From: Methanolinea sp.
GTDB taxonomy: Archaea; Halobacteriota; Methanomicrobia; Methanomicrobiales; Methanospirillaceae
Length of the DNA stretch: 64,000 bases
Direction: 5' to 3'
Assembly (NCBI GenBank): GCA_030055515.1
Contig: JASFYI010000001.1
Location: 310,001 to 374,000, forward strand
Under the pieces are notes generated by a model that worked only from the letters and a program-made list of their open reading frames with translations, was not told the origin of the DNA and did not search any database. The position numbers were made by a program, and so were the translations under genes. Each line of letters starts with the position of its first letter. Positions within the stretch are counted from its first letter, which is position 1. Below are positions 15,879-19,386 of this stretch, one piece after another.

Positions 15879-16415
15879 TTAAATCCACGCCTTCCGCGCG
15901 GCGAGCTCGATCGCCCTCTGGACCGAGTCCCGCGGGATGATCGTCGCGACGGGGATATTCACGATCTGTTCTATCACGCTGCTCACGATCGGTGCGCAGA
16001 CGATGGCGATCGCCCCCTCCCTCTCGGCACGGAGGGCACTGATAATCGCCTCCTCCATCGTGTGGACAGGGTACTCCCTCACGCGGATGCGCCGCCCGTC
16101 GACGACAGCAGTCCTCTCCTGCACGACGTCGAGGACGGGCCGCGCCGCTATCAGGCCGATGAATTCGCCCTCCGGGGTGCGCGAGAATCTCCTGATGGCC
16201 CCGACTATCGCGCGGAGCGTCGAGAGGTTCGGCGACCTCTGCCCCTGCACGATCTTGTAGAGCGTACTTGGCGCGATACCGCTCGCCTCCGCGAGTTCCG
16301 CGACGCTCACGCGCAGGTCCTTCCGCATCACGTCGCGGAGCACGAGCGAGAACTCCTCGTCCGAGAGGAGCGCTGCCCGCACGACCTTGTCGACGGGATC
16401 CGCGATCACGGGCAA
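15879..16415 (-). CDS. XRE-type transcriptional regulator with C-terminal effector domain
   Basis: This 178-residue DNA-binding protein has a helix-turn-helix at about residues 35-65 (VSVAELAEASGIAPSTLYKIVQGQ) followed by a domain of about 100 residues (RIRVREYPVHTMEEAIISAL, then GAIAIVCAPIVSSVIEQIVN) that probably senses a ligand. The frame opens with TTG at 16415; GTG at 16409 has better spacing from a GGAGG motif and may be the true start. It is divergent from the ABC importer operon and separated from it by an AT-rich region with an inverted repeat, so it may control that importer. Confidence 0.85.
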   Translation of the reverse strand: MPVIADPVDKVVRAALLSDEEFSLVLRDVMRKDLRVSVAELAEASGIAPSTLYKIVQGQRSPNLSTLRAIVGAIRRFSRTPEGEFIGLIAARPVLDVVQERTAVVDGRRIRVREYPVHTMEEAIISALRAEREGAIAIVCAPIVSSVIEQIVNIPVATIIPRDSVQRAIELAARKAWI

Positions 16416-16591: not shown

Positions 16592-17809
16592 ATGGAATTG
16601 AAACCGATTTCCATCCTCGCAGGGGCCATCATTTGCGCGCTCCTGGTCGCAGGCTGCACCACGCAGACCACGCAGGCACCTCCCGCGACGCGGGATACCG
16701 TAATCGTCACGTACACGAAGGGAACGGGCCCGATGCCCACGCTGCTCGGGACGGAGCAGATCGACGGGTACATCGCGTGGCAACCGTTCGTCGAGGTTGC
16801 CCCCCTCGCGAACATCGGCAGGGTGCTCGTCTACTCCGGCGACATGCCCCCCGAGGGGAGGTGGAAGAACCATCCCTGCTGCGTCTTCACCGCGACCTCG
16901 GATGCCATCGCGGGGAGCCCCGGACTCACGAACGCCCTGACGGCGGCCCTCGTGCTCTCGACGCAGTACATCGGCGAGCACCCCGACGAGGGTGCCGAGA
17001 TCGTGGCAGACTGGCTCGCGGGGAAGGGGAACTTCACGTACGGGAACATCTCCGTCTCTTCCGTGGAAGTCCTGAAGAGGGCGTTTCCCACCGTGAAGTT
17101 CGTCAACGAGCCCACCCCGTCGTGGAAGAAGTCGAACCTCGAATTCGTGTACGCCCAAAGGGAACTCGGCGTCCTCACGGGGGCACTCGCGAACTCGACC
17201 GACGAGGAGACACTCAGGATCCTGTTCGATTCGTCCCCCTACGATGCTGCCGCGGCGATGATCCGCGAGGGCCGGATCGCGACGCCTGCACCCGAAAAGG
17301 ACCCCGTCGGCATCGGGTACCTCATGTCGGACCACCACGCGGCACTCTTCGTCGCCATCAAGAAGTGGGAGTACTTCAACGAGACCTACGGGATCAGCAT
17401 CCGGCCGCGCGACACCACGGCGTCCCGGCCTGACGTTGCGGACCTCGTCGTGAATGGCCAGAAGGTCGCGGAGCTCCGCCTCATCCCTGGCGACGCGGGG
17501 CCGCAGCTCATGCAACTCATGTCCACGGGCAACATCAGGTACGCGCTCGTCGGGAACCCGCCCGCGATCGCGGCGGCGGACAAGGGGACGCCCGTGAAGA
17601 TCATCATGGCGCTCAACGGCGAGGGCTCGGGAATCGTCGTGAACGACGACTCGCCTGCACGCGACTGGGCTGGGTTCGTCACGTGGGCAAAGGAGAGGTC
17701 GGCTGCAGGAAAGCCGGTGAAGATCGCCGCGCCGGGGAAGGGATCCATACAGGATGTCCTGTTGCGGTACTCGCTCGATGCAAGCGGTTTATCTGTGAGG
17801 GAAGGATAA
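16592..17809 (+). CDS. ABC importer substrate-binding lipoprotein, apparently circularly permuted
   Basis: This 405-residue NMT1/SsuA-like binding protein acts at the outer face of the membrane. A lipoprotein signal ends in the lipobox LLVAGC (Cys22). The order of the mature protein is reversed from the family. Residues 36-230 match the usual second half (TKGTGPMPTLLGTEQIDGYI, then NHPCCVF, then YIGEHPDEGAEI). Residues 238-405 match the usual first half (VGIGYLMSDHHAALFVA, then LMSTGNIRYALVGNPP, then GKGSIQDVLLRYSLDASGL). The last residues, SVREG, would join directly onto DTVIVTYTKGTG in a standard protein. The ATG at 16592 is chosen for the signal peptide; an upstream in-frame start adds a non-signal leader. 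The ligand is unknown (taurine, sulfonate, nitrate-like or thiamine precursor). Confidence 0.85.
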   Translation: MELKPISILAGAIICALLVAGCTTQTTQAPPATRDTVIVTYTKGTGPMPTLLGTEQIDGYIAWQPFVEVAPLANIGRVLVYSGDMPPEGRWKNHPCCVFTATSDAIAGSPGLTNALTAALVLSTQYIGEHPDEGAEIVADWLAGKGNFTYGNISVSSVEVLKRAFPTVKFVNEPTPSWKKSNLEFVYAQRELGVLTGALANSTDEETLRILFDSSPYDAAAAMIREGRIATPAPEKDPVGIGYLMSDHHAALFVAIKKWEYFNETYGISIRPRDTTASRPDVADLVVNGQKVAELRLIPGDAGPQLMQLMSTGNIRYALVGNPPAIAAADKGTPVKIIMALNGEGSGIVVNDDSPARDWAGFVTWAKERSAAGKPVKIAAPGKGSIQDVLLRYSLDASGLSVREG

Positions 17810-17822
17810 ACTAGAAGGGATC

Positions 17823-18587
17823 ATGAGGTACCAGCGGGCCCTCCTCCCCCTCTTTCTCGTCGCGGCGTGGGAGGCTGCGGCCTTTCTCATCAACAATCCC
17901 TTCATCCTCCCCTCCCTCGCGACCGTCGTCCCCATCCTCGCGAATCCATTCTCGGCGAGCTACACCCTCGGGACGGGGAGCCTCGCGGAGAATGCCGCGG
18001 TCAGCATCCAGCGCGTCAGCCTCGGGTTCACCATCGCGATGCTGGTGGCGATTCCGCTCGGCGTGATGATGGGACGGTCGCAGGTCCTCAACGAGCTGTT
18101 CGATTCCCTGATAGAAATCCTCCGCCCCATCCCCCCCCTCGCGTGGGTGCCCCTCGCCCTCGCGTGGTTCAAGATAGGGCTCACCTCGATCGTCTTCATC
18201 ATCTTCATCGGCGCGTTCTTCCCCATCCTGCTCAACACGATCGACGGGGTGAAGTCGGTGAAGAAGACGTGGCTTGAGGTCGCAACGACCCTCGGGGCAA
18301 ACGAGAGGCAGATCCTCCTCAAGGTCGTATTCCCCGGCGCCGCGCCGATCATCTGGACAGGGCTCCGCGTGGGATTCGGGATCGCGTGGATGTGCGTCGT
18401 CGCCGCAGAGTGGCTCCCGGGGATCACGCGGGGGCTCGGGTACCTCATCCTCTACGCGTACAACTTCGGCCAGACGAACCTCATCATCGCGGGGATGGTG
18501 GTCATCGGGTTCATCGGCCTCTCGATCGACATAATCTTCAAGAAGGCAGAGAAGCGGTGGTTCTCGTGGCGGGGGCTCGAGCGATGA
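17823..18587 (+). CDS. ABC importer permease (SsuC/TauC family)
   Basis: This is the membrane subunit of a nitrate/sulfonate/taurine-type importer, 254 residues with about six helices. It has the EAA-type coupling segment WLEVATTLGANERQILLKVVFPGAAPII (about residues 150-178), where it docks onto the ATPase. It starts 13 bp after the binding-protein stop with a GAAGGG motif upstream and is followed by the ATPase gene 34 bp later. Confidence 0.93.
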   Translation: MRYQRALLPLFLVAAWEAAAFLINNPFILPSLATVVPILANPFSASYTLGTGSLAENAAVSIQRVSLGFTIAMLVAIPLGVMMGRSQVLNELFDSLIEILRPIPPLAWVPLALAWFKIGLTSIVFIIFIGAFFPILLNTIDGVKSVKKTWLEVATTLGANERQILLKVVFPGAAPIIWTGLRVGFGIAWMCVVAAEWLPGITRGLGYLILYAYNFGQTNLIIAGMVVIGFIGLSIDIIFKKAEKRWFSWRGLER

Positions 18588-18621: not shown

Positions 18622-19386
18622 GTGACCCTCCTCCTCGAGGATGTCTCCAAGACTTTTCCCACGGGGGACGGTTCCGCGGTGGAAGCCCTCTCGGGAATCA
18701 CCCTCGAGGTGGGAGACAGCGAGTTCGTCTCGGTCCTCGGTCCATCCGGCTGCGGGAAGACGACGCTCCTGCGGATCGTCGCGGGGCTCGAGACCCCGAC
18801 GAAGGGGACGATACGGCTTGACGGCGAGAAGATAGAGGGCCCGAGTCCCCGCATGGCGATGATATTCCAGGAGTACTCGCTCTACCCGTGGAGGACTGTC
18901 ATCCGCAACATCGAGTTCGGGCTCGAGGTAAAGGGTATTTCGAAGGAGGAGAGGAGGAAGAAAGCGGCGGAGTACCTCGAGCTCGTGGGCCTCCGGGATT
19001 TTGCCGACCGTTACCCCTACGAGCTCTCGGGAGGGATGCGCCAGCGCGTCGCCGTCGCGCGGGCCCTCGCCATCGAGCCCCACATCCTGCTCATGGACGA
19101 GCCTTTCGGGGCCCTCGATGCCCAGACCCGGAACAAGCTCCAGCGCGAGCTCCTCGAGCTCTGGGAGAAGACCAAGAAGACGGTCCTCTTCGTGACGCAC
19201 AGCGTCGACGAGGCGGTCTTCCTCTCCGACAGGATCGTCATCCTCTCGCCGCGTCCGGGACGCGTGAGGGAGATCGTGCGGGTCGGCCTCCCGCGCCCGC
19301 GCGACAGGACGGGGATCGAATTCGCACGCATCAGGCGCTACGTCCTCGACCACATGGAGAACATGGCGGTCCCGGAGAAGGCGTAA
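18622..19386 (+). CDS. ABC importer ATP-binding subunit (SsuB/TauB family)
   Basis: This is the nucleotide-binding subunit that powers the importer, 254 residues. Walker A is GPSGCGKTT, the Q-loop is MIFQEYSLYPW, the signature is LSGGMRQR, Walker B is ILLMDEPFGALD, and the switch histidine is in FVTHSVDEA. The start is GTG at 18622, preceded by GGAAGGGA. EYSLYPWRTV is characteristic of the sulfonate/nitrate/taurine subfamily. It closes the three-gene importer operon. Confidence 0.95.
   Translation: MTLLLEDVSKTFPTGDGSAVEALSGITLEVGDSEFVSVLGPSGCGKTTLLRIVAGLETPTKGTIRLDGEKIEGPSPRMAMIFQEYSLYPWRTVIRNIEFGLEVKGISKEERRKKAAEYLELVGLRDFADRYPYELSGGMRQRVAVARALAIEPHILLMDEPFGALDAQTRNKLQRELLELWEKTKKTVLFVTHSVDEAVFLSDRIVILSPRPGRVREIVRVGLPRPRDRTGIEFARIRRYVLDHMENMAVPEKA

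Follow-up and report, generated by a model that had tools for sequence, protein, structure and literature searches.

The open reading frame at positions 16592–17809 (+) of the window, the 64,000-nucleotide stretch of DNA analyzed here, encodes a 405-residue lipoprotein that is, virtually beyond doubt, a natural circular permutant of the NMT1/SsuA binding-protein family. The best overall explanation, to which we assign a probability of about 0.66, is that it is the permuted binding lipoprotein of an SsuABC-type importer, that it arose through gene duplication and that it serves the import of coenzyme M (CoM) or a close sulfonate. The permuted order, its conservation and recurrence, the predicted fold, the mutual exclusion with CoM-type SsuA and the lack of CoM genes were all established computationally; the duplication route, the substrate and the regulation are inferred, and no ligand was measured. 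The gene and its neighbors are laid out as follows:

16592–17809, + strand: circularly permuted NMT1/SsuA-like substrate-binding lipoprotein (SBP), 405 aa (from the ORF, profile matches, rotation and predicted model)
16592–16657, + strand: signal peptide with its lipobox (LVAGC, Cys22), N-terminal as usual (sequence)
16697–17275, + strand: canonical C-terminal half, residues 36–228, with the second part of lobe 2, the return to lobe 1 and the helical tail (TIGR01728 positions 137–271 at residues 43–189; DSSP elements)
17276–17299, + strand: linker of about residues 229–236 that connects the canonical C-terminus with the canonical N-terminus (sequence and model)
17300–17806, + strand: canonical N-terminal half, residues 237–405, with the first part of lobe 1 and the first β-α unit of lobe 2, ending after the GSIQDVLLRYSL helix (NMT1_2 positions 2–150 at residues 233–402; model)
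17823–18587, + strand: ABC permease (BPD_transp_1; nearest NCBIfam SaoP/TauC/NtrB, below cut-offs; profile search and locus comparison)
18622–19386, + strand: ABC ATPase with a GTG start (nearest NCBIfam SaoA/TauB, below cut-offs; profile search and locus comparison)
15879–16415, − strand: divergent HTH_3 regulator with a weak PrpR_N-like sensor match, kept beside permuted and some canonical systems (profile search and locus comparison)

Profile searches aligned residues 43–189 of the protein with positions 137–271 of the 290 in TIGR01728 (SsuA_fam) and residues 233–402 with positions 2–150 of the 252 in PF13379 (NMT1_2). Each half of the chain therefore matches the opposite half of the same HMMs, and the collinear order of PF13379 proteins, N-terminal half before C-terminal half, is not met, the two profile stretches being reversed. 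When residues 233–405 were set in silico ahead of residues 36–232, the two NMT1_2 stretches became one (positions 8–251 of 252) and the score rose from 97.4 to 105.2 bits, both values passing the gathering cut-off of 24.7 bits. TIGR01728 likewise gave a single stretch (38–271 of 290) and rose from 67.8 to 78.7 bits, short in either form of its curated cut-off of 163.5 bits. This merging of two partial matches into one, with higher scores, indicates that the halves are swapped. The motifs WKNHPCCV, IDGYIAWQPF, GYLMSDHHAALF and GSIQDVLLRY are family motifs that stand in the normal order in three relatives (L078, L079 and L091). Matches to the SsuA, SaoX and NMT1 families are only broad, below equivalog cut-offs, and a PDB sequence search with the protein returned nothing significant. 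The lipobox cysteine is present in at least 90% of 44 aligned members and, as expected of PF13379 proteins, a signal with lipobox and an adjoining ABC permease and ATPase are all present. The sequence-only reading had proposed swapped halves behind an intact lipoprotein signal, with intact permease and ATPase genes. Both proposals hold, the two downstream genes being full length and conserved; its half boundaries of 36–230 and 238–405 were roughly right and are corrected to about 36–228 and 237–405.

We found the permuted order in 59 of 101 Methanomicrobiales genomes (relatives with at least 40% identity, full-length or partial). More distant permuted members occur in Methanothermococcus, Methanothrix, Archaeoglobaceae, Thermoplasmata and one Bacillota MAG. 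When a separate profile was used for each half, 133 ORFs of the fetched loci fell into the same permuted type; most of them end at the end of the N-half profile or a few residues from it, and homologs in normal order were also found among relatives in other genomes. The permutation is thus an old clade character across Methanomicrobiales, and a private event in one genome is ruled out by the 59 carriers and the other lineages. The source genome (1.76 Mb, 99.1% complete) holds a single copy of the gene. In most loci with enough flanking sequence, the divergent HTH gene, the SBP, the permease and the ATPase stay together. The HTH_3 gene (15879–16415, −) is a candidate regulator of sulfonate or CoM uptake.

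The ssuA and ssuC genes of Methanosarcina acetivorans are described as belonging to a CoM-specific ABC transporter and as upregulated with cs and comDE on CoM starvation (PMC12068725), and for almost all methanogens ssuABC has been named as the CoM transporter (PMC10658910). A genome that is likely M. acetivorans (G422) carries the normal-order CoM-type SsuA at 58% identity. This subfamily (L174-like), which has the normal order and a GYQPSTHQ motif, occurs in 38 of the same 101 Methanomicrobiales genomes and never together with the permuted protein: 59 genomes have the permuted form, 38 the CoM type, none both and four neither, against an expected overlap of about 22. None of the four genomes with neither importer is more than 80% complete. 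The 78 near-complete genomes divide into 43 with the permuted and 35 with the normal form (expected overlap about 19). Both states occur in different species of three genera (g5, g11 and g15) and of one family (f3), so the exclusion does not reflect one deep split; it is nevertheless partly phylogenetic. By this complementary distribution, the permuted importer meets a criterion for a CoM-specific SsuABC and resembles, as a homologous importer, both the M. acetivorans system and its canonical relatives (L174, L118 and L244). The ATPase of L118 is 66% identical to that of the window, the highest value.

The source genome contains mcrA, whereas ComDE and ComA were not found in it and MMP16 did not rise above cut-off. 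CoM import is therefore probably needed and the organism is a predicted CoM auxotroph, for which the permuted importer is the best candidate CoM importer. ComDE is missing from 31 near-complete genomes, and each of these has one of the two systems: 21 the permuted and 10 the normal type. Taken together, the exclusion with CoM-type SsuA and the missing CoM genes lead us to infer, with reasonable though far from full confidence and without ligand-binding data, a CoM-type function. The window gene would then encode the extracytoplasmic lipoprotein of an SsuABC-type importer that most likely binds CoM (2-mercaptoethanesulfonate) or a close sulfonate and passes it to the permease and ATPase, the HTH repressor-like gene putatively regulating the importer. 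On this explanation, the permuted form spread in Methanomicrobiales and replaced the normal-order CoM-type SsuA. Most genomes of the same genus also lack ComDE.

The permuted protein may instead bind a ligand other than CoM, such as taurine, isethionate, sulfolactate or a small anion like nitrate, which we regard as possible though distinctly less probable. The broad, sub-equivalog matches to SsuA, SaoX and NMT1 leave room for it, as do permuted relatives in lineages not known for methanogenesis and the absence of any CoM biosynthesis gene less than about 5 kb away from the window gene or from its close relatives; some canonical CoM-type systems are, by contrast, linked to ComDE or cysteate synthase. 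Permutation as such does not imply CoM use, since it is also found in Archaeoglobaceae and Thermoplasmata MAG members, whose need for CoM is not shown, and in a paralogous clade (L113–L116 and L119). Another ligand would not, however, readily account for zero overlap with CoM-type SsuA in 101 genomes, for one of the two systems in 31 of 31 near-complete genomes without ComDE, or for a source genome with mcrA and without ComDE, ComA or an above-cut-off MMP16.

Import of CoM or a close sulfonate remains the preferred function. Two further proteins, L169 (G135:C93:10364-11452) and L168 (G369:C13:144935-146122), each from one genome, are permuted with their breakpoint elsewhere, at the hinge that precedes lobe 2 (type B). 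L169 corresponds to the normal-order protein L172 with the cut exactly at residue 152/153. The N-terminal part of L169 is 69% identical to L172 residues 153–355 and its C-terminal part 84% identical to residues 55–152; its signal region also matches L172. These identities to swapped segments demonstrate, at the sequence level, a recent permutation in the family. Trees of rotated sequences placed L169 as sister to L172 (support 100/99) and L168 among normal-order f10 proteins, and the permease and ATPase trees agree with those of the rotated SBPs. The window clade (Methanomicrobiales and Methanothermococcus) forms one strongly supported group whose nearest relatives are normal-order f14 proteins (96/88), and Archaeoglobaceae-type permutants fall separately. 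A single origin of all type A permutants was not supported (AU p = 0.043, 0% of bootstrap trees). The simplest reading of the tree is at least four order changes, with direction not always certain and L168 and L169 each known from one genome; since reversal to normal order cannot be excluded, we claim only the number of changes. That permutation recurs within the NMT1/SsuA-like family is accordingly held with good confidence. We lean only slightly towards the wider proposal that it is a recurrent, tolerated switch in an archaeal sulfonate/CoM-binding family (at least four changes at two breakpoints, one of them recent, with 69–84% identity to a normal-order sister and exact junctions readable), and that the permuted importer was repeatedly swapped with the normal CoM importer in Methanomicrobiales, where it likely supplies CoM when biosynthesis genes are missing. 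Judging from gene names assigned by sequence reading, normal-order f10 relatives often adjoin a ComDE-like gene, and the neighbors of the permuted L168 (L192) include a cysteate-synthase-like and a ComDE-like gene. L168 ends in a PGF-CTERM-like C-terminal anchor.

The most likely origin, which is inferred, would begin with an in-frame tandem duplication of a normal ssuA gene, after which the first copy would have lost the N-half that followed its signal peptide and the second would have been cut short after its own N-half. L169 retains a relic of the post-lipobox linker before its internal N-half (SGTPKVKD, compared with TGTPGVKD in L172), which supports this route. Tandem duplication with loss of the outer halves had been suggested from the sequence alone; the relic favors the duplication, yet the pattern of loss was incompletely drawn because the N-terminal signal of the first copy was kept, so that the first N-half must have been deleted between the signal and the C-half. 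The same product could come from fission of the gene and re-fusion of its halves the other way round, and the lack of any tandem intermediate (an ORF with two C-halves) among 240 family ORFs is compatible with this, but no split-gene relatives were noticed and the linker relic is what a duplicated gene would leave; we consider this route unlikely. Frames of 819, 938 and 1170 aa were rejected as tandem SBPs. Canonical CoM-type SBPs lie in two very long frames, L233 2142–4598 (+) and L234 3818–7327 (−), of 819 and 1170 aa, which seem to carry additional extracellular domains.

AlphaFold2 gave a confident, complete model of the permuted protein (pLDDT 91.9, pTM 0.86; 44-member alignment), and the normal-order L172 was modeled likewise for comparison (pLDDT 89.4). 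Foldseek, which respects chain order, returned no PDB match for the permuted model at E ≤ 0.001 and 1321 matches at E ≤ 1e-3 for L172, the best being SsuA (2x26; E 1.5e-19; VIA Z 32.3, rmsd 2.2, 283 residues). The absence of SsuA from this order-dependent list is no evidence of a different fold. Hits of the permuted model above E 1e-3, NMDA receptors and others, were discarded as meaningless. Its best in-order PDB match is OpuAC (Z 9.2, rmsd 4.5, 207 residues). If its secondary structure elements are listed from residue 239 onwards and those of residues 36–226 are appended, they parallel those of L172 almost one-to-one (element lists compared by eye, without superposition), with the break falling inside lobe 2 between helix 386–397 (L172 164–175) and strand 36–41 (L172 185–187). 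A type II topology is predicted through this relation to L172. In the model, the chain would start inside lobe 2, after the first β-α unit, and run to the canonical C-terminus, from which the short linker would carry it into the canonical N-terminus and on to its end at the lobe 2 breakpoint, with the fold and ligand cleft presumably kept.

Given the pseudo-symmetry of type II binding proteins and the 207-residue in-order alignment of the permuted chain with OpuAC, one could suppose two unrelated domains, or look-alike lobes in normal order, and no permutation at all; this has next to no support, because the halves match opposite halves of the same HMMs with the family motifs, rotation yields one continuous match, and two segments of the normal-order L172 recur in swapped order in L169, at 69% and 84% identity. 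Nor is there any realistic prospect of an assembly chimera, even though most members derive from metagenome assemblies, since order and breakpoint are conserved in 133 ORFs, which excludes chance as well, with identical junctions in 59 Methanomicrobiales species, including single-contig genomes (among them G015, G016 and G088) and a complete Methanoregula record (L060, CP121470.1), and with flanking HTH, permease and ATPase genes conserved; misassembly can still be imagined only for L168 and L169, the type B cases known from one genome each.

The circularly permuted protein is related to SsuA, TauA and NrtA-CmpA (PF13379 NMT1_2, TIGR01728) by superfamily after rotation and by the permease-plus-ATPase importer type, and differs from them in its swapped halves, for which an order-dependent structure search misses SsuA at E ≤ 1e-3. 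The sequence-only reading had held that natural circular permutation is rarely described in periplasmic-type binding proteins. Known cases exist. TpMglB-2 (Tp0684; Type Ic, Cluster Bc) is a naturally circularly permuted ABC binding lipoprotein that binds ligand and changes conformation; it is a Type I glucose binder whose permuted part is too divergent for sequence proof of homology (PMC4990184). This Type I (Cluster B) sugar binder differs from the window protein in breakpoint and family, and its MglB-like sugar-binding fold is not met in the window protein, which matches NMT1_2/SsuA only. The glycine-betaine proteins OpuAC and ProX are reported circular permutants, also with respect to molybdate-binding proteins and CysB, at sequence identities under 24% (PMC2395249). 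OpuAC shares a permuted binding-protein topology with the window protein, although the OpuAC family gave no Pfam match in it at E ≤ 1, leaving only the structural resemblance. OpuAC and ProX differ in family and ligand, and the relation of the window protein to its canonical family is direct at the sequence level. We found no description of permutation in the NMT1/SsuA-like family in the literature searched, which did not cover most subscription journals.

Natural circular permutation is seldom both clear and backed by sequence-level proof. Its recurrence in a single functional family that holds old as well as recent cases would make permutation by duplication directly testable. HMM-based and order-dependent fold searches under-call permuted importer genes. 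CoM is a cofactor of methanogenesis, and its importers, a route by which the inhibitor bromoethanesulfonate also enters, may consequently go unnoticed in many methanogens that rely on taking CoM up.

Two minor observations concern other permuted systems. One Bacillota MAG (L075, JAJZQD010000038.1) encodes a permuted SBP together with a permease and an ATPase, either through transfer from archaea or as contamination. The second permuted, paralogous clade (L113, L114, L115, L116 and L119; about 30% identity) has its own permease and ATPase and co-occurs with either CoM-type system.
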